Shown in pieces: positions 6,001 through 42,500 of a stretch of DNA of 64,000 bases. The notes under the pieces were generated by a model. It made no database searches and was not told the DNA's origin. It saw only the letters and a list, made by a program, of their open reading frames with translations. Every line of letters starts with the position of its first letter. Position 1 is the stretch's first letter. The translations under genes were made by a program, and so were the position numbers. This DNA comes from Terebella lapidaria (lineage: Eukaryota; Annelida; Polychaeta; Terebellida; Terebellidae): the NCBI GenBank assembly GCA_949152475.1, contig OX424564.1:434001-498000 (forward strand), given 5' to 3'.

Positions 6001-7424
6001 GGCCAGGTCCAGAAGGCTGACCAGGTATGTACACGTACTATAGCGAGTGTGACCCTCAGGCCGGGTCCAGAAGGCTGACCAGGTATGTACACGTACTATA
6101 GCGAGTGTGACCCTCAGGCCGGGTCCAGAAGGCTGACCAGGTATGTACACGTACTATAGCGAGTGTGACCCTCAGCTCTCAGGCCAGGTCCAGAAGGCTG
6201 ACCAGGTATGTACACGTACTATAGCGAGTGTGACCCTCAGCTCTCAGGCCAGGTCCAGAAGGCTGACCAGGTATGTACACGTACTATAGCGAGTGTGACT
6301 CTCAGGCCAGGTCCAGAAGGCTGACCAGGTATGTACACGTACTATAGCGAGTGTGACTCTCAGGCCAGGTCCAGAAGGCTGACCAGGTATGTACACGTAC
6401 TATAGCGAGTGTGACCCTCAGGCCAGGTCCAGAAGGCTGACCAGGTATGTACACGTACTATAGCGAGTGTGACCCTCAGCACTCAGGCCAGGTCCAGAAG
6501 GCTGACCAGGTATGTACACGTACTATAGCGAGTGTGACCCTCAGCACTCAGGCCAGGTCCAGAAGGCTGACCAGGTATGTACACGTACTATAGCGAGTGT
6601 AACCCTCAGGCCAGGTCCAGAAGGCTGACCAGGTATGTACACGTACTATAGCGAGTGTGACCCTCAGGCCGGGTCCAGAAGGCTGACCAGGTATGTACAC
6701 GTACTATAGCGAGTGTGACCCTCAGGCCAGGTCCAGAAGGCTGACCAGGTATGTACACGTACTATAGCGAGTGTGACCCTCAGGCCAGGTCCAGAAGGCT
6801 GACCAGGTATGTACACGTACTATAGCGAGTGTGACCCTCAGGCCGGGTCCAGAAGGCTGACCAGGTATGTACACGTACTATAGCGAGTGTAACCCTCAGG
6901 CCAGGTCCAGAAGGCTGACCAGGTATGTACACGTACTATAGCGAGTGTTACTCTCAGCTCTCAGGCCAGGTCCAGAAGGCTGACCAGGTATGTACACTTA
7001 CTATAGCGAGTGTGACCCTCAGCTCTCAGGCCGGGTCCAGAAGGCTGACCAGGTATGTACACGTACTATAGCGAGTGTGACCCTCAGGCCGGGTCCAGAA
7101 GGCTGACCAGGTATGTACACGTACTATAGCGAGTGTGACCCTCAGCTCTCAGGCCAGGTCCAGAAGGCTGACCAGGTATGTACACGTACTATAGCGAGTG
7201 TGACCCTCAGCTCTCAGGCCAGGTCCAGAAGGCTGACCAGGTATGTACACGTACTATAGCGAGTGTGATCCTCAGCTCTCAGGCCAGATCCAGAAGGCTG
7301 ACCAGGTATGTACACGTACTATAGCGAGTGTGACCCTCAGCTCCCAGGCCAGGTCCAGAAGGCTGACCAGGTATGTACACGTACTATAGCGAGTGGGACC
7401 CTCAGCTCTCAGGCCAGGTCGAGA
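1..7424 (+). repeat. 58/65-bp tandem array made of an exon 3' end plus its 5' splice site (gene A intron 7)
   Basis: About 120 head-to-tail copies fill the window from base 1. A full unit (65 bp) runs from ATGTACACGTACTATAGCG through the coding sequence for YYSECDPQLSGQVQKADQ to the donor CAG/GTATGT. The exon it derives from can be read intact in gene B (26906-27035). A second form (58 bp) lacks 7 bp (CTCTCAG) between two CTCAG copies; the two forms are mixed irregularly. Common point variants are GCCGGG for GCCAGG and GACTCTCAG for GACCCTCAG. Neither unit length is divisible by three and each copy contains TAG in the coding frame, so the array can only be intronic. The right edge decays at about 7420 into an A-rich stretch. 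The left edge is outside the window. Confidence 0.97.
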
Positions 7425-10400: not shown

Positions 10401-13400
10401 TGGGAATGGTCGGAGGCCTGATCTGTGGGGTAGTGGCAGCTGGTCTCTTCACTCCCTGTGTGTCCTGGGTAAGTGTTCTGGGAATGGTCGGTGGTCCGAT
10501 CTGTGGGGTAGTGGCAGCTGGTCTCTTCACCCCCTGTGTGTCCTGGGTAAGTGTTCTGGGAATGGTCGGAGGCCTGATCTGTGGGGTAGTGGCAGCTGGT
10601 CTCTTCACTCCCTGTGTGTCCTGGGTAAGTGTTCTGGGAATGGTCGGAGGCCTGATCTGTGGGGTAGTGGCAGCTGGTCTCTTCACTCCCTGTGTGTCCT
10701 CCTGGGTAAGTGTTCTGGGAATGGTCGGAGGTCCGATCTGTGGGGTAGTGGCAGCTGGTCTCTTCACTCCCTGTGTGTCCTCCTGGGTAAGTGTTCTGGG
10801 AATGGTCGGAGGTCCGATCTGTGGGGTAGTGGCAGCTGGTCTCTTCACTCCCTGTGTGTCCTGGGTAAGTGTTCTGGGAATGGTCGGAGGCCTGATCTGT
10901 GGGGTAGTGGCAGCTGGTCTCTTCACTCCTTGTGTGTCCTGGGTAAGTGTTCTGGGAATGGTCGGAGGTCCGATCTGTGGGGTAGTGGCAGCTGGTCTCT
11001 TCACCCCCTGTGTGTCCTGGGTAAGTGTTCTGGGATTGGTCGGAGGTCTGATCTGTGGGGTAGTGGCAGCTGGTCTCTTCACTCCCTGTTTGTCCTGGGT
11101 AAGTGTTCTGGGAATGGTCGGAGGCCTGATCTGTAGGGTAGTGGCAGCTGGTCTCTTCACTCCCTGTGTGTCCTGGGTAAGTGTTCTGGGAATGGTCGGA
11201 GGTCCGATCTGTGGGGTAGTGGCAGCTGGTCTCTTCACCCCCTGTGTGTCCTGGGTGTCGGAGGCCCGATCTGTGGGGTAGTGGCAGCTGGTCTCTTCAC
11301 TCCCTGTGTGTCCTGGGTAAGTGTTCTGGGAATGGTCGGAGGTCCGATCTGTGGGGTAGTGGCAGCTGGTCTCTTCACTCCCTGTGTGTCCTGGGTAAGT
11401 GTTCTGGGAATGGTCGGAGGTCCGATCTGTGGGGTAGTGGCAGCTGGTCTCTTCACTCCCTGTGTCCTGGGTCAGTGTTCTGGGAATGGTCGGAGGTCTG
11501 ATCCGTGGGGTAGTGGCAGCTGGTCTCTTCACCCCCTGTGTGTCCTGGGTAAGTGTTCTGGGAATGGTCGGAGGTCCGATCTGTGGGGTAGTGGCAGCTG
11601 GTCTCTTCACTCCCTGTGTCCTGGGTCAGTGTTCTGGGAATGGTCGGAGGTCTGATCTGTGGGGTAGTGGCAGCTGGTCTCTTCACTCCCTGTGTGTCCT
11701 GGGTAAGTGTTCTGGGAATGGTCGGAGGTCTGATCTGTGGGGTAGTGGCAGCTGGTCTCTTCACTCCCTGTGTGTCCTGGGTAAGTGTTCTGGGAATGGT
11801 CGGAAGCCTGATCTGTTTGGTAGTGGCAGCTGGTCTCTTCACTCCCTGTGTGTCCTGGGTAAGTGTTCTGGGAATGGTCGGAGGTCTGATCTGTGGGGTA
11901 GTGGCAGCTGGTCTCTTCACTCCCTGTGTGTCCTGGGTAAGTGTTCTGGGAATGGTCGGAGGTCTGATCTGTGGGGTAGTGGCAGCTGGTCTCTTCACTC
12001 CCTGTGTGTCCTGGGTAAGTGTTCTGGGAATGGTCGGAGGCCTGATCTGTGGGGTAGTGGCAGCTGGTCTCTTCACCCCCTGTGTGTCCTCCTGGGTAAG
12101 TGTTCTGGGAATGGTCGGAGGTCCGATCTGTGGGGTAGTGGCAGCTGGTCTCTTCACCCCCTGTGTGTCCTCCTAGGTAAGTGTTCTGGGAATGGTCGGA
12201 AGCCTGATATGTGGGGTAGTGGCAGCTGGTCTCTTCACTCCCTGTGTGTCCTGGGTAAGTGTTCTGGGAATGGTCGGAGGCCTGATCTGTGGGGTAGTAG
12301 CAGGTGGTCTCTTCACTCCCTGTGTGTCCTGGGTAAGTGTTCTGGGAATGGTCGGAGGCCTGATCTGTGGGGTAGTGGCAGCTGGTCTCTTCACTCCCTG
12401 TGTGTCCTGGGTAAGTGTTCTGGGAATGGTCGGAGGCCTGATCTGTGGGGTAGTGGCAGCTGGTCTCTTCACTCCCTGTGTGTCCTGGGTAAGTGTTCTG
12501 GGAATGGTCGGAGGCCTGATCTGTGGGGTAGTGGCAGCTGGTCTCTTCACTCCCTGTGTGTCCTGGGTAAGTGTTCTGGGAATGGTCGGAGGCCTGATCT
12601 GTGGGGTAGTGGCAGCTGGTCTCTTCAACCCCTGTGTGTCCTGGGTAAGTGTTCTGGGAATGGTCGGAGGCCTGATCTGTGGGGTAGTGGCAGCTGGTCT
12701 CTTCACCCCCTGTGTGTCCTGGGTAAGTGTTCTGGGAATGGTCGGAGGCCTGATCTGTAGGGTAGTGGCAGCTGGTCTCTTCACCCCCTGTGTGTCCTGG
12801 GTAAGTGTTCTGGGAATGGTCGGAGGCCTGATCTGTGGGGTAGTGGCAGCTGGTCTCTTCACCCCCTGTGTGTCCTGGGTAAGTGTTCTGGGAATGGTCG
12901 GAGGTCCGATCTGTGGGGTAGTGGCAGCTGGTCTCCTCACCCCCTGTGTGTCCTGGGTAAGTGTTCTGGGAATGGTCGGAGGTCCGATCTGTGGGGTAGT
13001 AGCAGGTGGTCTCTTCACTCCCTGTGTGTCCTGGGTAAGTGTTCTGGGAATGGTCGGAGGCCTGATCTGTGGGGTAGTGGCAGCTGGTCTCTTCACCCCC
13101 TGTGTGTCCTGGGTGAGTGTTCTGGGAATGGTCGGGGGCCCGATCTGTGGGGTAGTGGCAGCTGGTCTCTTCACTCCCTGTGTGTCCTCCTGGGTAAGTG
13201 TTCTGGGAATGGTCGGAGGCCTGATCTGTGGGGTAGTGGCAGCTGGTCTCTTCACCCCCTGTGTGTCTTCCTGGGTAAGTGTTCTGGGAATGGTCGGAGG
13301 CCTGATCTGTGGGGTAGTGGCAGCTGGTCTCTTCACCCCCTGTGTGTCTTCCTGGGTAAGTGTTCTGGGAATGGTCGGAAGCCCGATCTGTGGGGTAGTG

Positions 13401-16268
13401 GCAGCTGGTCTCTTCACTCCCTGTGTGTCCTGGGTAAGTGTTCTGGGAATGGTCGGAGGTCCGATCTGTGGGGTAGTGGCAGCTGGTCTCTTCACCCCCT
13501 GTGTGTCCTCCTGGGTAAGTGTTCTGGGAATGGTCGGAGGTCTGATCTGTGGGGTAGTGGCAGCTGGTCTCTTCACTCCCTGTGTGTCCTCCTGGGTAAG
13601 TGTTCTGGGAATGGTCGGAGGTCTGATCTGTGGGGTAGTGGCAGCTGGTCTCTTCACTCCCTGTGTCCTGGGTAAGTGTTCTGGGAATGGTCGGAGGCCC
13701 GATCTGTGGGGTAGTGGCAGCTGGTCTCTTCACTCCCTGTGTGTCCTCCTGGGTAAGTGTTCTGGGAATGGTCGGAGGTCTGATCTGTGGGGTAGTGGCA
13801 GCTGGTCTCTTCACTCCCTGTGTGTCCTGGGTAAGTGTTCTGGGAATGGTCGGAGGCCCGATCTGTGGGGTAGTGGCAGCTGGTCTCTTCACTCCCTGTG
13901 TGTCCTGGGTAAGTGTTCTGGGAATGGTCGGAGGTCTGATCTGTGTGGTAGTGGCAGCTGGTCTCTTCACTCCCTGTGTGTCCTGGGTAAGTGTTCTGGG
14001 AATGGTCGGAGGTCTGATCTGTGTGGTAGTGGCAGCTGGTCTCTTCACTCCCTGTGTGTCCTGGGTAAGTGTTCTGGGAATGGTCGGAGGTCCGATCTGT
14101 GGGGTAGTGGCAGCTGGTCTCTTCACCCCCTGTGTGTCCTGGGTAAGTGTTCTGGGAATGGTCGGAGGCCTGATCTGTGGGGTAGTGGCAGCTGGTCTCT
14201 TCACTCCCTGTGTGTCCTCCTGGGTAAGTGTTCTGGGAATGGTCGGAGGTCTGATCTGTGGGGTAGTGGCAGCTGGTCTCTTCACTCCCTGTGTGTCCTC
14301 CTGGGTAAGTGTTCTGGGAATGGTCGGAGGCCTGATCTGTGGGGTAGTGGCAGCTGGTCTCTTCACTCCCTGTGTGTCCTGGGTAAGTGTTCTGGGAATG
14401 GTCGGAGGCCTGATCTGTGGGGTAGTGGCAGCTGGTCTCTTCACTCCCTGTGTGTCCTGGGTAAGTGTTCTGGGAATGGTCGGAGGTCTGATCTGTGGGG
14501 TAGTGGCAGCTGGTCTCTTCACTCCCTGTGTGTCCTCCTGGGTAAGTGTTCTGGGAATGGTCGGAGGTCTGATCTGTGGGGTAGTGGCAGCTGGTCTCTT
14601 CACTCCCTGTGTGTCCTGGGTAAGTGTTCTGGGAATGGTCGGAGGCCTGATCTGTGGGGTAGTGGCAGCTGGTCTCTTCACTCCCTGTGTGTCCTGGGTA
14701 AGTGTTCTGGGAATGGTCGGAGGTCCGATCTGTGGGGTAGTGGCAGCTGGTCTCTTCACTCCCTGTGTGTCCTGGGTAAGTGTTCTGGGAATGGTCGGAG
14801 GTCCGATCTGTGGGGTAGTGGCAGCTGGTCTCTTCACCCCCTGTGTGTCCTGGGTAAGTGTTCTGGGAATGGTCGGAGGCCCGATCTGTGGGGTAGTGGC
14901 AGCTGGTCTCTTCACCCCCTGTGTGTCCTGGGTAAGTGTTCTGGGAATGGTCGGAGGTCTGATCTGTGGGGTAGTGGCAGCTGGTCTCTTCACTCCCTGT
15001 GTGTCCTCCTGGGTAAGTGTTCTGGGAACGGTCGGAGGTCCAATCTGTGGGGTAGTGGCAGCTGGTCTCTTCACCCCCTGTGTGTCCTGGGTAAGTGTTC
15101 TGGGAATGGTCGGAGATCTGATCTGTGTGGTAGTGGCAGCTAGTCTCTTCACTCCCTGTGTGTCCTGGGTAAGTGTTCTGGGAATGGTCGGAGGTCTGAT
15201 CTGTGGGGTAGTGGCAGCTGGTCTCTTCACTCCCTGTGTGTCCTGGGTAAGTGTTCTGGGAATGGTCGGAGGTCCGATCTGTGGGGTAGTGGCAGCTGGT
15301 CTCTTCACCCCCTGTGTGTCCTCCTGGGTAAGTGTTCTGGGAATGGTCGGAGGTCTGATCTGTGGGGTAGTGGCAGCTGGTCTCTTCACCCCCTGTGTGT
15401 CCTCCTGGGTAAGGAAGGTTCGCGAGGAGATAACGTGCTAGAAATGGTGGCTTGTCACAATGCAGGTGATATCAGCTGATCTCCTCGGCCCTGATTATCC
15501 TATGTCAGTTATCAAAATGTTTCCGGTATTGGTATTATATCCTGATAAATGTTGCCTAGAATACAAATTGGCAAATAGTGCTATTGTGTTTCAAGGGCGC
15601 CCTGACGGGTCTCGTGGTGGGATTGACTCTGGCACTGTGGGTGGGGATAGGTACCATGGTGGCGGGACCGCCGTTACCATACCTACCACACAGCGTGGAG
15701 GGCTGCCCCGTGGACAACTCGACCCTGGGACTGAGTACAGCCGTGTATCCGTACACAGACCCGACGGACTGGAGCCTCACCCCAACACAGCCCAGGTCTG
15801 TAGGGTTACATGAATCTCCAGCCCTAACTATAACACAAGACAAAGTGAACTTCATCTCGTTTCAGTGAAGAAGATGATGTGTTTGGCTTCTACAAGCTGT
15901 CCTATATGTACTACGGTCTCGTGGCCATCGGCTCTTGTATGGTCACTGCTGTCATCGTCAGCGTAATTTCGGGTATGTTCGACTACATCACAATAGATTG
16001 TAAACCAGAACAAGATATGCCGAGTCTATGCCGAGTTGTAATACCTGTTGGGCACCGATCTGTGTCAGGTCTGGAGAGGGATGTCCCGGCGGAGCAGGTC
16101 TTCCCGTGTGCAGACACCTGCTGCAGGTGCTGTCCTCTGCGTGTCCGAGATTGTTGTCGCTGCGGCTCTCTGCCGCCTCAGGATGAAGTAGATGAAGATG
16201 ATCAAATCAAATTAGTGGGTTCTGTTTCTCGAGCATTTGGTGCTTTTTCATGTCATCGCCTGTTGTAG
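1..16268 (+). CDS. SLC5-family sodium/solute symporter, gene A (5' end outside window)
   Basis: Membrane symporter of the SLC5 (SSS) family, nearest in style to the monocarboxylate/multivitamin/iodide branch; substrate unknown. Coding exons seen: 7545-7633, 7773-7900, 8034-8191, 15596-15795, 15866-15972 and 16069-16268. The first five have exactly the lengths of gene B exons 8-12 (89, 128, 158, 200, 107 nt) and phases match throughout. Visible family marks are the VPLFMMAVMG segment, the SGSLSTVSGALNSM helix (Na2-site helix of the family), GMVGGPICG, and WVGIGTMVAGPPLPYLP. Exons 1-7 must lie upstream: the window opens inside the repeat array that follows exon 7 in gene B. The last exon carries a Cys-rich block (CADTCCRCC... 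DCCRCGSLPP), then runs 26 codons to a stop at 16266-16268. It lacks the long tail of gene B. One intron starts with GC rather than GT (7901). Whether the arrays in its introns still allow normal splicing cannot be judged from DNA. Confidence 0.85.
7545..7900 (+). CDS. Gene A exons 8 and 9
   Basis: Exon 8 is 7545-7633 (acceptor CTACAG, donor AG/GTACGG, ends in phase 2). Exon 9 is 7773-7900 (acceptor CTCTAG, ends in phase 1). They encode the loop and helices around GDYHGLPGLFLA and STVSGALNSMAAVVLLDF, which in SLC5 proteins contains part of the second sodium site. Exon 9 ends ACAG/GCGAGT, a GC donor; the exon length (128 nt) is identical to gene B exon 9, whose donor is a normal GTGAGT, which supports the GC boundary. 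The 139-bp intron between them carries nothing notable. Confidence 0.85.
8034..8191 (+). CDS. Gene A exon 10 (first copy; founder of the 78/81-bp array)
   Basis: The exon starts after CCACAG at 8033 and its first usable donor is TCCTGG/GTGAGT at 8192. The length, 158 nt, equals gene B exon 10 (40976-41133). It encodes two membrane segments beginning LLMGVLVTILAF and containing GMVGGPICGVVAAGLF. From 8114 onward its 3' part is the unit of the long array that follows. Every later copy keeps the same donor in the same phase, so the true 3' end in mRNA could be at any of many places. Confidence 0.8.
8114..15412 (+). repeat. 78/81-bp tandem array: 3' part of exon 10 plus its 5' splice site (gene A)
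   Basis: About 92 copies of a unit running GTTCTGGGAATGGTCGGAGG ... CCCTGTGTGTCC(TCC)TGG/GTAAGT. The 81-bp form has TCCTCCTGG and the 78-bp form TCCTGG. Each copy encodes 26-27 residues of a Gly-rich membrane helix (GMVGGPICGVVAAGLFTPC) and ends in a consensus donor (GTAAGT; GTGAGT in the first copy). Both lengths are multiples of three, so the coding frame stays open from exon 10 to about 11250. There a copy with an internal deletion (TCCTGGGTGTCGGAGG) shifts the frame and a stop follows. Later short copies (TGTGTCCTGGGTCAG, near 11461 and 11615) shift it again, and one copy has TCCTAGG (12174). The last unit ends with GTAAGGAAGG at 15409. Gene B has this exon in a single copy. Confidence 0.95.
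15596..16268 (+). CDS. Gene A exons 11-13 (3' end)
   Basis: Exon 11 is 15596-15795 (GALTGLVVGLTLALWVG, then an extracellular-type loop with PYLPHSVEGC and NST). Exon 12 is 15866-15972 (EEDDVFGFYKLSYMYYGLVA, a membrane helix). Exon 13 is 16069-16268. Acceptors TTTCAAG, TTTCAG and GTGTCAG and donors GTCTGT and GTATGT fit the phases 2-2, 2-1 and 1. In gene B the matching exon 13 stops at a donor after EDLDEAVE. In gene A the sequence at that point has no GT donor and reads on through DDQIKLVG to a stop, so the gene ends here unless a distant splice site is used. Confidence 0.85.
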
Positions 16269-24500: not shown

Positions 24501-27500
24501 CACTGGCGTCAGGGGCACACAATGTATTGGTGTGAATGTAGCCAAACAACACACTGGCGTCAGGGGCAGACAATGTATTGGTGTGAATGTGGCCTAACAA
24601 CACACTGGCGTCAGGGGCAGACAATGTATTGGTGTGAATGTAGCCTAACAAGACACTGGCGTCAGGGGCACACAATGTATTGTTGTGAATGTAGGCTAAC
24701 AACACACTGGCGTCAGGAGCAGACAATGTATTGGTGTGAATGTAGCCTAACAAGACACTGGCGTCAAGGGCACACAATGTATTGGTGTGAATGTAGCCTA
24801 ACAACACACTGGCGTCAGGGGCAGACAATGTATTGGTGTGAATGTAGCCTAACAACACACTGGCGTCAGGGGCAAACAATGTATCGGTGTGAATGTAGCC
24901 TAACAAGACACTGGCGTCAGGGGCACACAATGTATTGTTGTGAATGTAGGCTAACAACACACTGGCGTCAGGAGCAGACAATGTATTGGTGTGAATGTAG
25001 CCTAACAAGACACTGGCGTCAGGGGCATACAGTGTATTGGTGTGAATGTAGCCTAACAACACACTGGCGTCAGGGGCAGACAATGTACTATTGGTGTGAA
25101 TGTAGCCTAACAACACACTGGCGTCAGGGGCAGACAATGTATTGGTGTGAATGTAGCCTGACAACACACTGGCGTCAGGGGCACATAATGTATTGGTGTG
25201 AATGTAGCCTAACAACACACTGGCGTCAGGGGCAGACAATGTATTGGTGTGATTGTAGCCAAACAAGACACTGGCGTCAGGGGCACACAATGTATTGTTG
25301 TGAATATAGGCTAACAACACACTGGCGTCAGGAGCAGACAATGTATTGGTGTGAATGTAGCCTAACAACACACTGGCGTCAGGGGCACACAATGTATTGG
25401 TGTGAATGTAGCCTAACAACACACTGGCGTCAGGGGCAGACAATGTATTGGTGTGAATGTAGCCTAACAAGACACTGGCGTCAGGGGCACACAATGTATT
25501 GTTGTGAATGTAGGCTAACAACACACTGGCGTCAGGAGCAGACAATGTATTGGTGTGAATGTAGCCTAACAACACACTGGCGTCAGGGGCACACAATGTA
25601 TTGTTGTGAATGTAGGCTAACAAGACACTGGCGTCAGGGGCAGACAATGTATTGGTGTGAATGTAGCCTAACAACACACTGGCGTCAGGGGCACACAATG
25701 TATTGGTGTGATTGTAGCCAAACAACACACTGGCGTAAGGGGCAGAGAATGTATTGGTGTGAATGTAGCCTAACAACACACTGGCGTCAGGGGCACACAA
25801 TGTATTGGTGTGAATGTAGCCGAACAAGACACTGGCGTCAGGGGCAGACAATGTATTGGTGTGAATGTAGCCCAACAACACACTGGCGTCAGGGGCAGAC
25901 AATGTATTGGTGTGAATGTAGCCTAACAACACACTGGCGTAAGGGGCAGAGAATGTATTGGTGTGAATGTAGCCTAACAACACACTGGCGTCAGGGGCAG
26001 ACAATGTATTGGTGTGAGTGTAGCCTAACAACACACTGGCGTCAGGGGCAGACAATGTATTGGTGTGAACCCCATGACAAAGGCACTAATATCGATTGCG
26101 AGCATTCCATCATAATCCATTATCCATTATCGGGCAGAGATATTCAAATATTACCAGTGAACAAAAAACCTGAATCTTCAACATTTCAATGTGGGAGTAC
26201 CGGTATCAATAAAAAATAATTGGTCGGACTTCCTTTCTATTCCAGAAACGTATCGTTTCATGTTTCATGTTTTTTCCATCGGCATCATCGAAATCTTGTG
26301 ATAATACTGATGGTAATAGCCTGATACACACTGCATCTGCTTCTCCAAGTGCTAGAGTTATTCATTCATTGTAGGGCGGGATGCGAGCGACCATCTGGAA
26401 TGACCTGATACAGATGACGATTGTGATGTCTTGTCTGAGTATGATTATTGGGTTCGGTCACAAAGAGACTGGGTCCCTCAGGGAGGTCTACGAGATCGCT
26501 AAAAACGGCTCTCGACTAGAATTCAACATGTGAGTCATATAGGACGGATCTACTAACTGTATATAATTGCAAATGTATCCAAACTCAACAATTAAATCGA
26601 CCTACGAAATGGAAAATATCGATGGGGTGATCTTCAACATACCACAAAGTACAGTAGTGGTACAAATTATCCATGTTTGTTTTGGTCAGATTCAAGCCAA
26701 ACCCGACAACTCGGACGACTTTCTGGTCACAGGTGGTGGGCGGAACTTTCCTGAACTTTGCGATGTACGCGGCGAGTCAGACGACCATCCAGAAGGCCCT
26801 GAGCACCAGCTCCATCAAAAACGCACAAAAGTAAAAATCTTGCCTCCACATAAAGTTACAGTTCGAGCCGACTTCATGGTACAGTAATCTTTTTTTCTCT
26901 TGCAGTGCCATGGTTGTGGTGTCAGTCTTGATGACAATAACGCTTGCTCTGGTCATGTGGCTCGGAATCCTGATGTACGCGTACTATAGCGAGTGTGATC
27001 CTCAGCTCTCAGGCCAGGTCCAGAAGGCTGACCAGGTATGTACACGTACTATAGCGAGTGTGACCCTCAGGCCAGGTCCAGAAGGCTGACCAGGTATGTA
27101 CACGTACTATAGCGAGTGTGACTCTCAGGCCAGGTCCAGAAGGCTGACCAGGTATGTACACGTACTATAGCGAGTGTGACCCTCAGCTCTCAGGCCAGGT
27201 CCAGAAGGCTGACCAGGTATGTACACGTACTATAGCGAGTGTGACCCTCAGGCCGGGTCCAGAAGGCTGACCAGGTATGTACACGTACTATAGCGAGTGT
27301 GACCCTCAGGCCAGGTCCAGAAGGCTGACCAGGTATGTACACGTACTATAGCGAGTGTGAATCTCAGGCCAGGTCCAGAAGGCTGACCAGGTATGTACAC
27401 GTACTATAGCGAGTGTGACCCTCAGGCCAGGTCCAGAAGGCTGACCAGGTATGTACACGTACTATAGCGAGTGTGACCCTCAGCTCTCAGGCCAGGTCCA

Positions 27501-30500
27501 GAAGGCTGACCAGGTATGTACACGTACTATAGCGAGTGTGACTCTCAGGCCAGGTCGAGAAGGCTGACCAGGTATGTACACGTACTATAGCGAGTGTGAC
27601 CCTCAGCTCTCAGGCCAGGTCCAGAAGGCTGACCAGGTATGTACACGTACTATAGCGAGTGTGACCCTCAGGCCAGGTCCAGAAGGCTGACCAGGTATGT
27701 ACACGTACTATAGCGAGTGTGACCCTCAGGCCAGGTCCAGAAGGCTGACCAGGTATGTACACGTACTATAGCGAGTGTGACCCTCAGCTCTCAGGCCAGG
27801 TCCAGAAGGCTGACCAGGTATGTACACGTACTATAGCGAGTGTGACCCTCAGGCCGGGTCCAGAAGGCTGACCAGGTATGTACACGTACTATAGCGAGTG
27901 TGACCCTCAGGCCAGGTCCAGAAGGCTGACCAGGTATGTACACGTACTATAGCGAGTGTGACCCTCAGCTCTCAGGCCAGGTCCAGAAGGCTGACGAGGT
28001 ATGTACACGTACTATAGCGAGTGTGACCCTCAGGCCAGGTCCAGAAGACTGACCAGGTATGTACACGTACTATAGCGAGTGTGATCCTCAGGCCAGGTCC
28101 AGAAGGCTGACCAGGTATGTACACGTACTATAGCGAGTGTGACCCTCAGGCCAGGTCCAGAAGGCTGACCAGGTATGTACACGTACTATAGCGAGTGTGA
28201 CCCTCAGCTCTCAGGCCAGGTCCAGAAGGCTGACCAGGTATGTACACGTACTATAGCGAGTGTGACCCTCAGGCCGGGTCCAGAAGGCTGACCAGGTATG
28301 TACACGTACTATAGCGAGTGTGACTCTCAGGCCGGGTCCAGAAGGCTGACCAGGTATGTACACGTACTATAGCGAGTGTGACCCTCAGCTCTCAGGCCAG
28401 GTCCAGAAGGCTGACCAGGTATGTACACGTACTATAGCGAGTGTGACCCTCAGCTCTCAGGCCAGGTCCAGAAGGCTGACCAGGTATGTACACGTACTAT
28501 AGCGAGTGTGACCCTCAGGCCAGGTCCAGAAGGCTGACCAGGTATGTACACGTACTATAGCGAGTGTGACCCTCAGGCCAGGTCCAGAAGGCTGACCAGG
28601 TATGTACACGTACTATAGCGAGTGTGACCCTCAGCTCTCAGGCCAGGTCCAGAAGGCTGACCAGGTATGTACACGTACTATAGCGAGTGTGACCCTCAGC
28701 TCTCAGGCCAGGTACAGAAGGCTGACCAGGTATGTACACGTACTATAGCGAGTGTGACCCTCAGGCCAGGTCCAGAAGGCTGACCAGGTATGTACACGTA
28801 CTATAGCGAGTGTGACCCTCAGCTCTCAGGCCAGGTCCAGAAGGCTGACCAGGTATGTACACGTACTATAGCGAGTGTGACCCTCAGCTCTCAGGCCGGG
28901 TCCAGAAGGCTGACCAGGTATGTACACGTACTATAGCGAGTGTGACCCTCAGGCCGGGTCCAGAAGGCTGACCAGGTATGTACACGTACTATAGTGAGTG
29001 TGACCCTCAGCTCTCAGGCCGGGTCCAGAAGGCTGACCAGGTATGTACACGTACTATAGCGAGTGTGACCCTCAGGCCGGGTCCAGAAGGCTGACCAGGT
29101 ATGTACACGTACTATAGCGAGTGTGACCCTCAGCTCTCAGGCCAGGTCCAGAAGGCTGACCAGGTATGTACACGTACTATAGCGAGTGTGACCCTCAGGC
29201 CAGGTCCAGAAGGCTGACCAGGTATGTACACGTACTATAGCGAGTGTGACCCTCAGGCCAGGTCCAGAAGGCTGACCAGGTATGTACACGTACTATAGCG
29301 AGTGTGACTCTCAGGCCGGGTCCAGAAGGCTGACCAGGTATGTACACGTACTATAGCGAGTGTGACCCTCAGGCCAGGTCCAGAAGGCTGACCAGGTATG
29401 TACACGTACTATAGCGAGTGTGACTCTCAGGCCAGGTCCAGAAGGCTGACCAGGTATGTACACGTACTATAGCGAGTGTGACCCTCAGGCCGGGTCCAGA
29501 AGGCTGACCAGGTATGTACACGTACTATAGCGAGTGTGACCCTCAGGCCGGGTCCAGAAGGCTGACCAGGTATGTACACGTACTATAGCGAGTGTGACCC
29601 TCAGGCCGGGTCCAGAAGGCTGACCAGGTATGTACACGTACTATAGCGAGTGTGACCCTCAGGCCAGGTCCAGAAGGCTGACCAGGTATGTACACGTACT
29701 ATAGCGAGTGTGACCCTCAGGCCAGGTCCAGAAGGCTGACCAGGTATGTACATGTACTATAGCGAGTGTGACCCTCAGGCCAGGTCCAGAAGGCTGACCA
29801 GGTATGTACACGTACTATAGCGAGTGTGACCCTCAGGCCGGGTCCAGAAGGCTGACCAGGTATGTACACGTACTATAGCGAGTGTGACCCTCAGGCCAGG
29901 TCCAGAAGGCTGACCAGGTATGTACACGTACTATAGCGAGTGTGACCCTCAGCTCTCAGGCCGGGTCCAGAAGGCTGACCAGGTATGTACACGTAATATA
30001 GCGAGTGTGACCCTCAGGCCAGGTCCAGAAGGCTGACCAGGTATGTACACGTACTATAGCGAGTGTGACCCTCAGCTCTCAGGCCAGGTCCAGAAGGCTG
30101 ACCAGGTATGTACACGTAATATAGCGAGTGTGACCCTCAGGCCAGGTCCAGAAGGCTGACCAGGTATGTACACGTACTATAGCGAGTGTGACCCTCAGCT
30201 CTCAGGCCAGGTCCAGAAGGCTGACCAGGTATGTACACGTAATATAGCGAGTGTGACCCTCAGGCCAGGTCCAGAAGGCTGACCAGGTATGTACACGTAC
30301 TATAGCGAGTGTGACCCTCAGGCCGGGTCCAGAAGGCTGACCAGGTATGTACACGTACTATAGCGAGTGTGACCCTCAGCTCTCAGGCCAGGTCCAGAAG
30401 GCTGACCAGGTATGTACACGTACTATAGCGAGTGTGACCCTCAGGCCAGGTCGAGAAGGCTGACCAGGTATGTACACGTACTATAGCGAGTGTGACCCTC

Positions 30501-33500
30501 AGCTCTCAGGCCAGGTCCAGAAGGCTGACCAGGTATTTACACGTACTATAGCGAGTGTGACCCTCAGGCCGGGTCCAGAAGGCTGACCAGGTATGTACAC
30601 GTACTATAGCGAGTGTGACCCTCAGGCCAGGTCCAGAAGGCTGACCAGGTATGTACATGTACTATAGCGAGTGTGACCCTCAGGCCAGGTCCAGAAGGCT
30701 GACCAGGTATGTACACGTACTATAGCGAGTGTGACCCTCAGGCCAGGTCCAGAAGGCTGACCAGGTATGTACACGTACTATAGCGAGTGTGACCCTCAGC
30801 TCTCAGGCCGGGTCCAGAAGGCTGACCAGGTATGTACACGTACTATAGCGAGTGTGACCCTCAGCTCTCAGGCCAGGTCCAGAAGGCTGACCAGGTATGT
30901 ACACGTACTATAGCGAGTGTGACCCTCAGGCCAGGTCCAGAAGGCTGACCAGGTATGTACACGTACTATAGCGAGTGTGACCCTCAGGCCGGGTCCAGAA
31001 GGCTGACCAGGTATGTACACGTACTATAGCGAGTGTGACCCTCAGGCCAGGTCCAGAAGGCTGACCAGGTATGTACACGTACTATAGCGAGTGTGACCCT
31101 CAGGCCGGGTCCAGAAGGCTGACCAGGTATGTACACGTACTATAGCGAGTGTGACCCTCAGGCCAGGTCCAGAAGGCTGACCAGGTATGTACACGTACTA
31201 TAGCGAGTGTGACCCTCAGGCCAGGTCCAGAAGGCTGACCAGGTATGTACACGTACTATAGCGAGTGTGACCCTCAGCTCTCAGGCCAGGTCCAGAAGGC
31301 TGACCAGGTATGTACACGTACTATAGCGAGTGTGACTCTCAGGCCAGGTCCAGAAGGCTGACCAGGTATGTACACGTACTATAGCGAGTGTGACCCTCAG
31401 GCCAGGTCCAGAAGGCTGACCAGGTATGTACACGTACTATAGCGAGTGTGACCCTCAGGCCAGGTCCAGAAGGCTGACCAGGTATGTACACGTACTATAG
31501 CGAGTGTGACTCTCAGGCCAGGTCCAGAAGGCTGACCAGGTATGTACACGTACTATAGCGAGTGTGACCCTCAGGCCGGGTCCAGAAGGCTGACCAGGTA
31601 TGTACACGTACTATAGCGAGTGTGACCCTCAGCTCTCAGGCCAGGTCCAGAAGGCTGACCAGGTATGTACACGTACTATAACGAGTGTGACCCTCAGGCC
31701 GGGTCCAGAAGGCTGACCAGGTATGTACACGTACTATAGCGAGTGTGACTCTCAGGCCGGGTCCAGAAGGCTGACCAGGTATGTACACGTACTATAGCGA
31801 GTGTGACCCTCAGGCCAGGTCCAGAAGGCTGACCAGGTATGTACACGTACTATAGCGAGTGTGACCCTCAGGCCGGGTCCAGAAAGCTGACCAGGTATGT
31901 ACACGTACTATAGCGAGTGTGACCCTCAGCTCTCAGGCCAGGTCCAGAAGGCTGACCAGGTATGTACACGTACTATAGCGAGTGTGACTCTCAGGCCAGG
32001 TCCAGAAGGCTGACCAGGTATGTACACGTACTATAGCGAGTGTCACCCTCAGGCCGGGTCCAGAAGGCTGACCAGGTATGTACACGTACTATAGCGAGTG
32101 TGACCCTCAGGCCGGGTCCAGAAAGCTGACCAGGTATGTACACGTACTATAGCGAGTGTGACCCTCAGCTCTCAGGCCAGGTCCAGAAGGCTGACCAGGT
32201 ATGTACACGTACTATAGCGAGTGTGACCCTCAGGCCAGGTCCAGAAGGCTGACCAGGTATGTACACGTACTATAGCGAGTGTGACCCTCAGCTCTCAGGC
32301 CAGGTCCAGAAGGCTGACCAGGTATGTACACGTACTATAGCGAGTGTGACCCTCAGGCCGGGTCCAGAAAGCTGACCAGGTATGTACACGTACTATAGCG
32401 AGTGTGACCCTCAGGCCGGGTCCAGAAGGCTGACCAGGTATGTACACGTACCATAGCAAATGTGACCCTCAGCTCTCAGGCCAGGTCCAGAAGGCTGACC
32501 AGGTATGTACACGTACTATAGCGAGTGTGACCCTAAGCTCTCAGGCCAGGTCCAGAAGGCTGACCAGGTATGTACACGTACTATAGCGAGTGTGACCCTC
32601 AGGCCAGGTCCAGAAGGCTGACCAGGTATGTACACGTACTATAGCGAGTGTGACCCTCAGCTCTCAGGCCAGGTCCAGAAGGCTGACCAGGTATGTACAC
32701 GTACTATAGCGAGTGTGACCCTCAGCTCTCAGGCCAGGTCCAGAAGGCTGACCAGGTATGTACACGTACTATAGCGAGTGTGACCCTCAGCTCTCAGGCC
32801 AGGTCCAGAAGGCTGACCAGGTATGTACACGTACTATAGCGAGTGTGACCCTCAGCTCTCAGGCCAGGTCCAGAAGGCTGACCAGGTATGTACACGTACT
32901 ATAGCGAGTGTGACTCTCAGGCCAGGTCCAGAAGGCTGACCAGGTATGTACACGTACTATAGCGAGTGTGACCCTCAGGCCGGGTCCAGAAGGCTGACCA
33001 GGTATGTACACGTACTATAGCGAGTGTGACCCTCAGGCCGGGTCCAGAAGGCTGACCAGGTATGTACACGTACTATAGCGGGTGTGACCCTCAGGCCGGG
33101 TCCAGAAGGCTGACCAGGTATGTACACGTACTATAGCGAGTGTAACCCTCAGGCCGGGTCCAGAAGGCTGACCAGGTATGTACACGTACTATAGCGAGTG
33201 TGACCCTCAGCTCTCAGGCCGGGTCCAGAAGGCTGACCAGGTATGTACACGTACTATAGCGGGTGTGACCCTCAGGCCGGGTCCAGAAGGCTGACCAGGT
33301 ATGTACACGTACTATAGCGAGTGTGACCCTCAGGCCAGGTCCAGAAGGCTGACCAGGTATGTACACGTACTATAGCGAGTGTGACCCTCAGGCCGGGTCC
33401 AGAAGGCTGACCAGGTATGTACACGTACTATAGCGAGTGTGACCCTCAGCTCTCAGGCCAGGTCCAGAAGGCTGACCAGGTATGTACACGTACTATAGCG

Positions 33501-36500
33501 AGTGTGACCCTCAGGCCGGGTCCAGAAGGCTGACCAGGTATGTACACGTACTATAGCGAGTGTGACCCTCAGGCTGGGTCCAGAAGGCTGACCAGGTATG
33601 TACACGTACTATAGCGAGTGTGACCCTCAGGCCAGGTCCAGAAGGCTGACCAGGTATGTACACGTACTATAGCGAGTGTGACCCTCAGCTCTCAGGCCAG
33701 GTCCAGAAGGCTGACCAGGTATGTACACGTACTATAGCGGGTGTGACCCTCAGGCCAGGTCCAGAAGGCTGACCAGGTATGTACACGTACTATAGCGAGT
33801 GTGACCCTCAGCTCTCAGGCCGGGTCCAGAAGGCTGACCAGGTATGTACACGTACTATAGCGAGTGTGACCCTCAGGCCAGGTCCAGAAGGCTGACCAGG
33901 TATGTACACGTACTATAGCGAGTGTGACCCTCAGGCCGGGTCCAGAAGGCTGACCAGGTATGTACACGTACTATAGCGAGTGTGACCCTCAGGCCGGGTC
34001 CAGAAGGCTGACCAGGTATGTACACGTACTATAGCGAGTGTGACCCTCAGGCCAGGTCCAGAAGGCTGACCAGGTATGTACACGTACTATAGCGAGTGTG
34101 ACCCTCAGGCCGGGTCCAGAAGGCTGACCAGGTATGTACACGTACTATAGCGAGTGTGACCCTCAGCTCTCAGGCCAGGTCCAGAAGGCTGACCAGGTAT
34201 GTACACGTACTATAGCGAGTGTGACCCTCAGGCCGGGTCCAGAAGGCTGACCAGGTATGTACACGTACTATAGCGAGTGTGACCCTCAGGCCGGGTCCAG
34301 AAGGCTGACCAGGTATGTACACGTACTATAGCGAGTGTGACCCTCAGGCCAGGTCCAGAAGGCTGACCAGGTATGTACACGTACTATAGCGAGTGTGACC
34401 CTCAGCTCTCAGGCCAGGTCCAGAAGGCTGACCAGGTATGTACACGTACTATAGCGAGTGTGACCCTCAGGCCAGGTCCAGAAGGCTGACCAGGTATGTA
34501 CACGTACTATAGCGAGTGTGACCCTCAGGCCGGGTCCAGAAGGCTGACCAGGTATGTACACGTACTATAGCGAGTGTGACCCTCAGCTCTCAGGCCAGGT
34601 CCAGAAGGCTGACCAGGTATGTACACGTACTATAGCGAGTGTGACTCTCAGGCCGGGTCCAGAAGGCTGACCAGGTATGTACACGTACTATAGCGAGTGT
34701 GACCCTCAGGCCAGGTCCAGAAGGCTGACCAGGTATGTACACGTACTATAGCGAGTGTGACCCTCAGGCCGGGTCCAGAAGGCTGACCAGGTATGTACAC
34801 GTACTATAGCGAGTGTGACCCTCAGCTCTCAGGCCAGGTCCAGAAGGCTGACCAGGTATGTACACGTACTATAGCGAGTGTGACCCTCAGGCCGGGTCCA
34901 GAAGGCTGACCAGGTATGTACACGTACTATAGCGAGTGTGACCCTCAGCTCTCAGGCCAGGTCGAGAAGGCTGACCAGGTATGTACACGTACTATAGCGA
35001 GTGTGACCCTCAGGCCGGGTCCAGAAGGCTGACCAGGTATGTACACGTACTATAGCGAGTGTGACCCTCAGCTCTCAGGCCAGGTCCAGAAGGCTGACCA
35101 GGTATGTACACGTACTATAGCGAGTGTGACCCTCAGGCCGGGTCCAGAAGGCTGACCAGGTATGTACACGTACTATAGCGAGTGTGACCCTCAGGCCAGG
35201 TCCAGAAGGCTGACCAGGTATGTACACGTACTATAGCGAGTGTGACCCTCAGGCCAGGTCCAGAAGGCTGACCAGGTATGTACACGTACTATAGCGAGTG
35301 TGACCCTCAGGCCGGGTCCAGAAGGCTGACCAGGTATGTACACGTACTATAGCGAGTGTGACCCTCAGCTCTCAGGCCAGGTCCAGAAGGCTGACCAGGT
35401 ATGTACACGTACTATAGCGAGTGTGACCCTCAGGCCAGGTCCAGAAGGCTGACCAGGTATGTACACATACTATAGCGAGTGTGACCCTCAGGCCAGGTCC
35501 AGAAGGCTGACCAGGTATGTACACGTACTATAGCGAGTGTGACCCTCAGCTCTCAGGCCGGGTCCAGAAGGCTGACCAGGTATGTACACGTACTATAGCG
35601 AGTGTGACCCTCAGCTCTCAGGCCAGGTCCAGAAGGCTGACCAGGTATGTACACGTACTATAGCGAGTGTGACCCTCAGGCCAGGTCCAGAAGGCTGACC
35701 AGGTATGTACACGTACTATAGCGAGTGTGACCCTCAGGCCAGGTCCAGAAGGCTGACCAGGTATGTACACGTACTATAGCGAGTGTGACCCTCAGGCCGG
35801 GTCCAGAAGGCTGACCAGGTATGTACACGTACTATAGCGAGTGTGACCCTCAGCTCTCAGGCCGGGTCCAGAAGGCTGACCAGGTATGTACACGTACTAT
35901 AGCGAGTGTGACCCTCAGCTCTCAGGCCGGGTCCAGAAGGCTGACCAGGTATGTACACGTACTATAGCGAGTGTGACCCTCAGCTCTCAGGCCAGGTCCA
36001 GAAGGCTGACCAGGTATGTACACGTACTATAGCGAGTGTGACCCTCAGGCCGGGTCCAGAAGGCTGACCAGGTATGTACACGTACTATAGCGAGTGTGAC
36101 TCTCAGGCCAGGTCGAGAAGGCTGACCAGGTATGTACACGTACTATAGCAAATGTGACCCTCAGCTCTCAGGCCAGGTCGAGAAGGCTGACCAGGTATGT
36201 ACACGTACTATAGCGAGTGTGACTCTCAGCTCTCAGGCCAGGTCCAGAAGGCTGACCAGGTATGTACACGTACTATAGCGAGTGTGACTCTCAGCTCTCA
36301 GGCCAGGTCCAGAAGGCTGACTAGGTATGAGTGAGAACGGATGTACTGGAAACATAGCTCTTTGTCATTGAAAGGTTTTCTATCGGATGCATGTTTTTGA
36401 AAGATATTCTATCTATAAAGTAGGTTATACTGCACAAACCCCAAAACTCACGTGTGAACAAGTTAAATATTATCCTCATAACTAACCAATTTTATCATTT

Positions 36501-39500
36501 TTGTTTCGTTTTTCAAACAAAGGTGCTTATCTGGATTTATTGTCTGAAAGCATAATATCAATTCTTGCAGTTAACATTCGTAAACACTGGCTGATTTTGT
36601 ATTTTGGTGATCAAAATTCGTACAACAAACAGAGACTAACTCAAATAGATCGCTTGCCCCGGTAAAACCAAATGTCAAAGCTGGCAATTATTTTTAATCT
36701 ATTTCTTTGTAATTGTCCTTTGGACATCACGCATCATCGGTACAATCTCCGACAAGTTGTAGTAGGTTACATACACGCGGTGGACTGCCTTAATAATACC
36801 TGTGTTCCATGAAACAATATGTGAAAAAAATGCTTTGTTGAACGTCAGTGGGCGATCTTACACATACTTGGACTTGTCAAAACGATAACAGCTGTTGATG
36901 TATTGACTTGTAAATAGGCCTACCATATATAGGCCTATGTACATGGTTGTGTTATAGGTATTGCCCAGACATGTATATTTTGAGTGCATTCACCTGGGCT
37001 ATCATTACATTCACCCGGGCTATCGTTCCATTCACCCGGCCTATCGTTCCATTCACCCGGCCTGTCGTTCCATTCACCCGGCTTATCGTTCCATTCACCC
37101 AGGCTATCATTCCATTCACCCGGGCTATCGTTCGATTCACCCAGGCTATCGTTCCATTCACCCGGGCTATCATTCCATTCACCCAGGCTATCATTCCATT
37201 CACCCGGGCTATCGTTCCATTCACCCAGCCTATCATTCCATTCACCCGGGCTATCGTTCAATTCACCCGGGCTATCGTTCAATTCACCCGGGCTATCATT
37301 CCATTCACCCGGGCTATCATTCCATTCACCCGGCCTATCGTTCCATTCACCCGGCCTATCGTTCCATTCACCCGGCCTGTCATTCCATTCACCCGGGCTA
37401 TCATTCCATTCACCCGGGCTATCGTTCCATTCATTCGGGCTATCGTTCCATTCACCCGGGCTATCGTTCCATTCACCCGGGCTGTCATTCCATTCACCCG
37501 GCCTATCATTCCATTCACCCGGGCTATCATTCCATTCACCCGGGCTATCGTTCCATTCACCCGGCCTATCGTTCCATTAACCTGGGCTATCATTCCATTC
37601 ACCCGGGCTATCGTTCCATTCACCCGGGCTATCGTTCCATTCACTCAGCCTATCATTCCATTCACCCAGCTATCATTCCATTCACCCAGGCTATCATTCC
37701 ATTCACCCGGGCTATCGTTCCATTCATTCGGGCTATCGTTCCATTCATTTGGGCTATCATTCCATTCACCCGGGCTATCGTTCAATTCAGCTGGCCTGTC
37801 GTTCGATTCACCCAGGCTATCGTTCCATTCACCCGGGCTATCATTCCATTCACCCGGGCTGTCGTTCCATTCACCCGGCCTATCATTCCATTCACCCGGG
37901 CTATCATTCCATTCACCTGGGCTATCGTTCCACTCACCCGGCCTATCGATCCATTCACCCGGGCTATCATTCCATTCACCCGGGCTATCGTTCCATTCAC
38001 CCGGGCTATCATTCCATTCACCCGGGCTATCATTCCATTCACCCGGGCTATCGTTCCATTCACTCGGCCTATCGTTCCATTCAACCAGCTGTCATTCCAT
38101 TCACCCGGACTATCATTCTATTAACCCGGGCTATCGTTCCATTCATTCGTGCTATCGTTCCATTCATTTGGGCTATCATTCCATTCACCTGGGCTATCGT
38201 TCAATTCAGCTGGGCTATCGTTCGATTCACCCGGGCTATCGTTCCATTCACCCGGGCTATTGTTCCATTCACCCGGGCTGTCGTTCCATTCACCCGGCCT
38301 ATCATTCCATTCACCCGGGCTATCATTCCATTCACCTGGGCTATCGTTCCACTCCCCGGCCTATCGTTCCATTCACCCGGGCTATCATTCCATTCACCCG
38401 GGCTATCATTCCATTCACCCGGGCTATCATTCCATTCACCCGGGCTATCATTCCATTCACCCGGGCTATCGTTCCATTCACTCGGCCTATCGTTCCATTC
38501 ACCCAGCTATCATTCCATTCACCCGGACTATCATTCTATTCACCCGGGCTATCGTTCCATTCATTCGGGCTATCGTTCCATTCATTTGGGCTATCATTCC
38601 ATTCACCCGGGCTATCGTTCAATTCAGCTGGGCTATCGTTCGATTCACCCGGGCTATCGTTCCATTCACCCGGGCTATCATTCCATTCACCCGGGCTATC
38701 GTTCCATTCACCCGGGTTATCGTTCGATTCACCCGGCCTATCATTCCATTCACCCCGGCTATCGTTCCATTCACCCGGCCTATCGTTCCATTCACCCGGG
38801 CTATCATTCCATTCACCCGGGCTATCGTTCCATTCACCCGGGTTATCATTCGATTCACCCGGCCTATCATTCCATTCACCCCGGCTATCGTTCCATTCAC
38901 CCGGCCTATCGTTCCATTCACCCAGGCTATCGTTCCATTCACCTGGGCTATCATTCCATTCACCCGGGCTATCGTTCAATTCACCTGGGCTGTCATTTGA
39001 TTCGCCGGGCTATCGTTCCATTAACCTGGGCTATCGTTCCATTCACCCGGGCTATCATTCCATTCACCCGGTCTATCATTCCATTCACCCGGGCTATCGT
39101 TCCATTCACCCGGGCTATCATTCCATTCACCCGGCCTATCATTCCATTCACCCGGGCTATCGTTCAATTCACCCGGCTATCGTTCCATTCACCCGGCCTA
39201 TCATTCCATTCACCCGGTCTATCATTCCATTCACCTGGCTATCGTTCCATTCACCCGGCCTATCATTCCATTCACCCGGCCTATCGTTCCATTCACCCGG
39301 GCTATCATTCCATTCACCCGGGCTATCATTCCATTCACCCGGCTATCATTCCATTCACCCGGCCTATCATTCCATTCACCCGGCCTATCGTTCCATTCAC
39401 CCGGCCTATCGTTCCATTCACCCGGGCTATCATTCCATTCACCCGGGCTATCATTCCATTCACCGGGGCTGTCGTTCCATTCACCCAGCTATCATTCCAT

Positions 39501-42500
39501 TCACCCGGGCTATCGTTCCATTCACCCGGGCTATCATTCCATTCACCTGGGCTATCATTCCATTCACCCGGTCTATCATTCCATTCACCCGGCCTATCGT
39601 TCCATTCACCCGGCCTGTCATTCCATTCACCCGGCCTATCATTCCATTCACCCGGGCTATCAATCCATTCACCCGGGCTATCATTCCATTCACCCGGGCT
39701 ATCATTCCATTCACCCGGCCTATCATTCCATTCACCCGGGCTATCAATCCATTCACCCGGGCTATCATTCCATTCACCCGGCCTATCGTTCAATTCACCC
39801 GGGCTGTCGTTCGATTCACCGGGGCTGTCGTTCCATTCACCCGGGCTATCGTTCAATTCACCAGGGCTGTAGTTCGATTCACCGGGGCTATCGTTCTAGT
39901 TAGGATCGGATCCAAGCTTCAGATTTCAAGACATTACTCTATCAGAGAACCAATGCTTCGCAACATGGAAGTGAGATCGGGTGTTTGAGATATTCCTGGC
40001 TCATACGTACTTGTTATGATGATGTTCATATGTCGTAATTATCTCTCGAATGTACCAATATCATTGGTGGATTACGCGTAATTCGGCACTTCATTGTTGT
40101 ATCATCATTTATGCTCTCGTGAGTAAAACAACAAACCAACCAGATTCATGAAACCGCTTATAAAACAAAATAATCCTCCCTTGTACTTGAGTGACATGCG
40201 ACTTGTTACACAACCACACTATATGCTAGGGACTTGGAGTGGTGCTACTTTAGTGAATACGTTTATCGATGGCACCTTATGTCCACAGATCGTCCCTCTG
40301 TTCATGATGGCGGTGATGGGGGAGTACCACGGACTGCCGGGTCTGTTCTTGGCGGCCACTTTCAGCGGTGCTCTCAGGTGGGAAAACAGTTCCGAAACAG
40401 CTGGAACAGCATACAAACCAGCCTACATGCTAATGGTTTAGAATGTGTTTGACAACATACAAACTAGCCTACATGCTAACGGCTTAGAATGTGTTTGACA
40501 ACATACAAACTAGCCTACATGCTAACGGCTTAGAATGTGTTTGACAACATACAAACTAGCCTACATGCTAACGGCTTAGAATGTGTTTGACAGCATACAA
40601 ACCAGCCTACATGCTAACGGCTTAGAATGTGTTTGACAACATACAAACCAGCCTACATGCTAACGGCTTAGAATGTGTTTGACAGCATACAAACCAGCCT
40701 ACATGCTAACGGCTTAGAACGTTGATCTGTTTAGCTCTGTTTCGGGTGGCTTGAACTCAATGTCCGCTGTGGTACTGCTGGATTTCATCGAACCTATCTA
40801 CAAACATTACAAACGCAGCAGTCTGCCCGAGAGGATCAGTGTCATTCTGACGAGATGCCTTGGTGAGTGCTTTCTGACATTTGACAAGTACTTGTAAGTG
40901 TACATGACTGACCGAGTACAAGCTTCAACAATAAAACAACACCAATAAGACCGTGCTGGTTTTTCTCCGAGACAGTGTTGTTGCTAGGGGTGATAGTGAC
41001 GGTCCTGGCTTTCGTTGTCCCACTGGTCGGAGACCTGATTCTGACAATAGCGCTCAGTATTTTCGGGATGGTAGGCGGCCCAATCTGTGGGGTACTGGCC
41101 GCCGGACTCTTCACACCGTGTGTCACCTCCTGGGTAAGCGTCTTCTGGTGTCATGGAGATGTGTCCTTTATCAACACAATATCAAGCAAGTTTTAGTAAT
41201 GTAATAGACGTGGAATCAATACCCAGTATCAAGTATTCCGAGCAAACAAAACAGGGTCCGTTATCCAATCTCATAGTCCGGGGACAGAAAGTCATATCAG
41301 GCTTTCTGATACCAACTGGCTGTCTATTTCCAGGGTGCGCTGGTTGGATTGTTGGTGGGTCTGGCTGTGACTATGTGGGTGGGGATAGGTACCATGGTGG
41401 CGGGGCCGCCGTTACCATACCTACCACACAGCGTGGAGGGCTGCCTCGTGGACAACTCGACCCTGGGACTGAGTACAGCCGTGTATCCGTACACAGACCC
41501 GACGGACTGGAGCGTCACGCCAACACAGCCCAGGTCTGACCTGATACAATGCAGTCAAACGAGTCACATTGTTCGAAATCATGTAATGTGATATTTCAGA
41601 TGCACATCAGTATCAAGTGTAAAATCTGTCTAACTACAAAATAAGTCCATGATCTGAATTCTGAACCTCCCAGTGAAGAAGATGATGTGTTTGGGTTCTA
41701 CAAGCTGTCCTATATGTACTATGGTCTGGTGGCTATCGGGACTTCAATGATCACGGCCGTGTTGGTCAGTGTAATCACAGGTAAGTCGCTAATTCTGACC
41801 TGTCGATTATGCCACTCCAAAAACAGTGAGACAGAACAAAGCAATGCGGACATCGGGGGTGAGTCGTTGTGGTGATGTTTCAGGTGTGAAGAAGGACACA
41901 CCGAACGAGTACATTTACTCGTGTGCGGACACCTGCTGTCGCTGTTGTCCCCGCAAGGTGCGAGATTGCTGTCGCTGTGGCTCTCTGCCGCCTCAAGAAG
42001 ACCTGGATGAAGCTGTAGAGGTAAAACTCACCAGCTGTCGAGGAAAAAATCATTCCACACTCAAACATAATGTAAATGTAACCTTACATAATGTTCCACC
42101 ATAAATAGGAGCTTTTTGAGGATCACCTGTCAGATTTGATATGCTACACTATTGTTGTGTATGGCAGGTGATCGAAGTGCATTTCAAGAAGAAGGCTGGT
42201 TCTGGAGTTCCTGGACTGGACCACCCTGTGCGACAAGTCAGTTTTATTCTGACCAACGATGCTAGCGAAGACCCAAAATCTTTCCCAGCTGATGGACAAC
42301 CGCACTCACTGCACACTGCCCTCTATCGGAAATCTTTCAAACTTGATGATGACATCCTGGAAGAACCTGAGGAGATCGAGGTGCTTCCATCTGGACCCAA
42401 GCTCAGTAATGGACTACGAAACATTGCACGACATGACAGTGGAATACATATCAATATGGACTCAAGCCAATCCTCATCGAGTCCCTCTCAACCAAGTCCT

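Follow-up and report, generated by a model that had tools for sequence, protein, structure and literature searches.

Minisatellites that span an exon-intron boundary of their own gene have been described in amphioxus as "mirages". According to the available text of two reports (PMC3087553, PMC3902484), they occur in the Adh3, TnC, globin (BflGb6, BflGb9) and PGBD5 genes and have units of about 10-160 bp. Many of the copies carry AG/GT signals, and splicing is stated to be undisturbed. The globin and PGBD5 cases contain 2-7 copies, with 6 and 3 copies for BflGb6 in two haplotypes. Here, a stretch of 64,000 nucleotides of the polychaete Terebella lapidaria was analysed (contig C11, OX424564.1, positions 434001-498000; hereafter the window), which belongs to an assembly of 761.6 Mb in 438 contigs. 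The window region contains a tandem pair of SLC5 genes, gene A and gene B. Three arrays were identified whose units copy the end of a coding exon together with its 5' splice site (donor): A7 in intron 7 of gene A, B7 in intron 7 of gene B, and A10 at exon 10 of gene A. The arrays are probably (about 0.78) mirage-type minisatellites, which arose by duplication at microhomologies with the donor included, grew by repeat turnover, are spliced at the first donor, and carry their extra donors as passengers. The preliminary description of this DNA knew of no described element type of this kind; the amphioxus mirages are one.

The two genes were modelled by hand. Exons 1-12 form a single open frame of 550 residues in gene A and 552 residues in gene B. 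The two proteins are identical at 436 of 550 aligned residues, and both belong to the SSF family (PF00474). The gene B protein matches the sodium-coupled monocarboxylate transporter 1 (SMCT1) chain 7sl9 (E 6e-100). The aligned region spans the exon 7/8 junction of gene B, and exon 7 is therefore coding by homology. Among the best 120 of 769 matches of the SLC5 protein search, the top three came from a brittle star (36%), a leech (49%), and a polychaete (44%), and no lancelet was named. Contig C438, evidently mitochondrial, encodes a COX1 whose best named matches are annelid: Pilargis wolfi (88%), Namalycastis (86%), a cluster of Phyllodocida (86%), and Saccocirridae (85%). An amphioxus host, considered because of the mirage literature, was rejected on both comparisons.

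The B7 array is phased on the end of exon 7 and its donor, which is no chance pattern. Tandem Repeats Finder (TRF) reported the array either at 26973-36329 (123-bp row) or at 27008-36329 (58-bp consensus, 154.6 copies). After the real exon end there are 153 complete units, 103 of 58 bp and 50 of 65 bp. The 65-bp unit contains 63 exonic nt; the 58-bp unit contains 56, through a 7-bp deletion of exon sequence; each also has 2-5 intron nt. The junction reads CAG/GTATGT in 150 of 152 cases, with GAG/GTATGT and CAG/GTATTT found once each. The window contains no N. These results bear out the earlier claim of an array that copies an exon end and a near-consensus donor about 150 times, in exonic context and phased on the exon-intron junction. 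The first copy was also correctly taken as the true exon end, at which the modelled exon 7 of this SLC5 homologue stops. That each unit holds coding bases stood as well, and only their number changes, from about 57 to 63 or 56 according to the unit form.

The A7 array has the same unit and starts at the end of gene A exon 7 (C11:388459/388460). It consists of 880 clean units over 53 kb, plus one interval with a 200-N assembly gap, and 866 of 878 junctions are perfect. The array stops 140 nt short of exon 8; almost the entire 53-kb intron, as assembled, is therefore array. An exact 52-base probe from the exon 7 unit had 529 genomic occurrences, on one strand throughout, and all of those among the matches listed were on C11. 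The A10 unit is the final 75 nt of gene A exon 10 plus the donor. Its 90 scored intervals comprise 66 of 78 bp, 20 of 81 bp, 3 of 76 bp, and 1 of 140 bp. The donor copies read GTAAGT (84/90), GTGAGT (2), GTCAGT (2), or ATAAGT (2), with GT kept in 88 of 90; the real exon 10 donor is GTGAGT. The A7 and B7 units have AGGT at their boundaries, whereas A10 has TGG/GT. That the arrays reflect an assembly artefact or an expansion error is highly improbable. The N gap leaves the length of A7 uncertain, but B7 and A10 have no N and contain 30 and 52 distinct units, respectively, and donor-spanning arrays were found in several different genes.

Table 1. Positions of the arrays, modelled exons, and neighbouring elements (window coordinates unless a contig is given).
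Feature	Position	Strand	Basis or remark
Array A7, right end	1..7405	+	starts 45.5 kb before the window, at C11:388460
Array A10	8192..15403	+	TRF and unit split; 8117-15403 with the founding exon copy
Array B7	27036..36329	+	TRF and unit split; 153 complete units
B7 founding copy (final 63 nt of gene B exon 7)	26973-27035	+	gene model
Gene A, modelled exons	C11:386162 to window 15972	+	hand-built model
Gene A exon 8	7545..7633	+	140 nt past the end of A7
Gene A exon 10	8034..8191	+	gene model; final 75 nt found array A10
Gene A exon 11	15596-15795		
Gene B, modelled exons	20763-41780	+	hand-built model, through exon 12 only
Gene B exon 7	26906..27035	+	gene model; PF00474; alignment to 7sl9
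Gene B exon 8	40289..40377	+	gene model; common acceptor for whichever B7 donor
Gene B exon 11	41334-41533		
51-bp array, gene B intron 4	22016-26069		interrupted by a 920-bp insertion
Unrelated 21-bp array, gene B intron 7	36987..39896	+	TRF; no match to modelled exons at E 0.01
46-bp array, gene B intron 8	40406-40719		6.8 copies
54-bp in-frame repeat	42966-43636		12.4 copies
Frames resembling a Ty3-type element	59953-63741	-	by eye

Each candidate donor was joined to the downstream exons through exon 12, and the reading frame was followed. In B7, the frame is open for donor 1 only, of 154 donors. Ahead of the N gap, A7 has 278 donors, of which donor 1 is open and the other 277 hit a stop; all 604 donors beyond the gap meet a stop before it is reached. 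Exon 7 therefore requires donor 1 in both genes, which fits one option of the preliminary description, namely that the first donor is strongly favoured. A10 is different in this respect, as donors 1-39 of 91 are open and each of donors 40-91 leads to a stop, the first frame shift falling at the irregular 140-bp interval. The exon 10 frame could thus tolerate later A10 donors.

Donor arrays recur in this genome. A survey of the genome for further arrays of this kind covered 30 of 106 SSF matches (63.7 kb, 17 separate places) and, for comparison, 30 of 153 SNF matches with about 650 nt downstream (L082 and L083 overlap); exons were taken from the match ends of the hidden Markov models, with donor presence not checked one by one. 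Donor-spanning arrays were found at two of the 30 matched SLC5 exons, L034 (60 bp x 21) and L046 (70 bp x 3.6). In addition, at L054 a 44-bp two-copy repeat lies across the donor of an unmatched exon. No such array was found at the 30 SNF exon ends, and none at the 5' ends of the surveyed matches. The gap between 2/30 and 0/30 is too small to build on. L034 and L046 lie in two different genes, at donors that seem to be homologous (the exon ends read ELMVIGR and ELLVVGR); the array units differ, so these look like separate events. At L034, the real exon retains its donor GT, but 19 of the 20 later copies have lost theirs, the opposite of A7/B7. The L034 array (257-1523, in an SGLT-like gene on the reverse strand) ends about 50 nt ahead of the next exon. 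Three of nine independent arrays (period at least 15, score at least 60) were donor-spanning, with a post hoc P of 0.004-0.025 for an assumed 40-80 donors. Six of 60 randomly drawn 10-kb places were also examined, and no donor array was seen there by a motif check and inspection of one array. Tandem repeats make up 5.0% of these six places and 56% of the 144-kb region around the window.

Such recurrence might be explained in another way, in which donors are repeatedly amplified here through a link to the donors themselves or to U1-bound nascent RNA, the copies are partly used, and the arrays feed back on gene output. This is considered unlikely. A related idea, that donor choice is a regulatory variable, was the other option of the preliminary description and gained no support. 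According to this idea, the array donors would jointly control splicing, variable use of later donors would lead to stops and decay, and array length would tune expression as in regulated unproductive splicing. All A7 and B7 donors past the first do give a premature stop, their junctions are nearly all intact, and the mean number of substitutions per site is lower at the nine donor sites than at the 42 other non-CpG sites (1.3 versus 3.0, omitting unit positions 29-37 and 46 because of deletion or strong polymorphism). However, the difference is insignificant (Mann-Whitney p 0.22), the GT loss at L034 points the other way, and the first 39 A10 donors would give no stops, so regulated unproductive splicing seems quite unlikely. 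Selection preserving the donors was also considered as such and is unsupported, given this p value and a donor-adjacent stretch that is equally invariant. The frame and mutation data together suggest that the extra donors are passengers.

Two further possibilities concern how the copies might be used in splicing. The A7/B7 units end in CAG/GTATGT, and the AGGT could serve as acceptor and donor at once, so that the intron would be removed stepwise. According to the available text of PMC10809524, splicing of human UBC makes use of such dual-specific AGGT sites arranged in tandem, and the UBC and VCX3A arrays resemble A7/B7 in having AGGT at the unit ends. This reading is very unlikely, because no pyrimidine tract was seen by eye ahead of the AG, A10 lacks the AG altogether, and the A7/B7 units would give no useful translation and are not multiples of three, whereas the UBC unit is. 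For exon 10, the open frames of donors 1-39 and the divisibility by three of the main units (78 and 81 bp) would permit later donors to insert in-frame hydrophobic segments of 26 or 27 residues, yielding protein length variants. Repeating a single membrane segment would probably upset the transporter fold, and the remaining 52 donors of A10 all lead to stops; such variants are most improbable. A search for structured RNA gave no Rfam match at the gathering score.

The array ends support an origin by tandem duplication at short homology wherever a breakpoint can be read. Beyond the last copy lies the beginning of the old intron. The sequence after the last B7 copy is GTATGAGTG and the exon side of gene B exon 7 is CTGATGTAC, with ATG in common. 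The sequence after the last A10 copy is GTAAGGAAG and the exon 10 side is ATCAGCGTT, with AG in common if one C-to-T change in the copies is assumed. The breakpoint microhomologies are ACCATGG in L046 and GGGTG in L054. A duplication between such short matches would have copied the exon end and donor in tandem. It would have been tolerated because the first copy preserves the exon and its donor, and the remainder is spliced out. A fixed phasing at intron position +5 was considered and dropped: the chance that both the exon 7 and exon 10 units end within 6 intron nt is 0.007 (observed reach 2-5 nt), but the unit reaches 6-13 intron nt in L046, about 38 in L034, and about 32 in L054.

After the duplication, the arrays probably grew through repeat turnover that mixes units and also crosses between paralogs. 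Genes A and B are old duplicates, as only 114 of 213 fourfold degenerate sites are alike when the last 90 nt of exon 7 are set aside. Within the exon 7 unit, all seven fourfold sites agree, and 59 of 63 nt are identical, versus 23 of 40 at the beginning of the exon. Eighteen unit types are common to A7 and B7, covering 690 of 880 and 137 of 153 units, respectively. The 7-bp deletion occurs in 649 A7 units and 103 B7 units, and the main variants are the same in both arrays. The arrays and the exon end have therefore been homogenised or copied between the genes, and turnover crossing the old paralogs would leave both nearly identical. Some departure from full randomness was observed in A7, where the variant s29TC forms 14 neighbouring pairs (3.9 expected) and the 7-bp deletion forms 489 (477.9 expected, p 0.036). 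A neighbour excess was found for two of four common A7 variants, and some rare variants cluster. The deletion is associated with 46A>G in both arrays (p 6e-5 in A7, 0.002 in B7). Between genes A and B, exon 11 is 90% identical with 31 of 37 fourfold sites alike, the highest of the 12 exons. This looks like a separate patch of gene conversion, so exchange is not confined to the array.

Splicing of exon 7 would then proceed at donor 1, the donor nearest to the exon 7 acceptor (130 nt), because every later A7/B7 donor yields a stop codon; mis-spliced RNA would go to nonsense-mediated decay. Several observations weigh against the mirage-type account. The motif at donor 1 of A7 and B7 is identical to that of the other copies, so the reason for its preference is inferred. 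No breakpoint is readable for A7, where the last copy is too decayed, or for L034. The agreement of seven out of seven fourfold sites is a small number, and the 27 nt upstream of the exon 7 unit are identical at 24 positions, yet agree at just three of six fourfold sites. The order of units is near random, the longest repeated run in A7 being 7 units in 880, and is not predicted by simple block-wise unequal crossing-over. The longest unit run common to A7 and B7 is 5, and 20 shuffles gave 5-8. Higher-order repeats from block duplication were sought and rejected, as no such blocks were seen in A7, B7, or the two gene B arrays with units of 51 and 21 bp. Since the latter two are also blockless, array turnover here seems to be general rather than a mark of the donor arrays.

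Compared with the amphioxus mirages, the present arrays are likewise tandem minisatellites spanning an exon-intron boundary of their own gene (the exon being identified by homology), and their units of 58/65 and 78/81 bp fall within the mirage size range. The differences are the annelid host, since mirages were named in cephalochordates, the copy number of 153 to about 880, as against 2-7 in the globin and PGBD5 cases, and the sharing of one array by two old paralogs. Ordinary intronic minisatellites have the same unit length, turnover, and intron location, whereas here the unit holds coding sequence and a donor, and the exon end is co-homogenised. Intron gain by tandem duplication of splice sites, as reported for potato RdRp (PMC4974935), likewise duplicates a splice signal; here, genes A and B share the position of intron 7, and no new intron was seen in the A/B comparison. 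Among annelids, earthworm metallothionein genes have minisatellites in the first intron, and one clone contains exon 4 in duplicate, with one copy inverted and neither present in the final transcript (PMC12783039, available text). These minisatellite monomers are intronic, however, and the exon 4 copies are not a donor-phased tandem array. Among the papers listed in searches of the open-licence literature, no donor array this large and no mirage outside amphioxus appeared. The arrays are thus real and striking in scale, and they represent no new element type; their size and the animal group look new.

Other repeats lie in and near gene B. Two stretches of the intron 4 array unit, 14 and 13 bases long, recur exactly in a 364-bp tandem element within locus L020 of the same contig (E 0.003), so this array may derive from a dispersed repeat. 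The 46-bp array fills nearly all of intron 8, beginning 29 nt past the donor and stopping 16 nt before the acceptor. The 43-, 51-, 21-, and 46-bp arrays had no match to the modelled exons of either gene at E 0.01. A long open frame past exon 12 contains the 54-bp in-frame repeat, which encodes Ser/Glu-rich repeats of 18 residues and is perhaps the C-terminal tail of gene B. Farther along the window, minus-strand frames resemble gag and reverse transcriptase of a Ty3-type long terminal repeat element. On a second contig, a COX1-like match in two parts (G000:C417:44633-46450) is likely a nuclear mitochondrial copy.

In summary, two neighbouring genes carry more than 1,000 near-identical donors in exonic context, with one acceptor per gene. 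In the exon 7 arrays, the donor motif and nearby exonic sequence are nearly uniform, so position is the obvious remaining factor that could favour the first donor. These arrays are therefore a natural test of exon definition and of first-come donor choice. The analyses also suggest that mirages are not specific to lancelets, that an intron of 53 kb (as assembled) can be filled by such an array, and that a coding exon end can be homogenised along with its array across paralogs.

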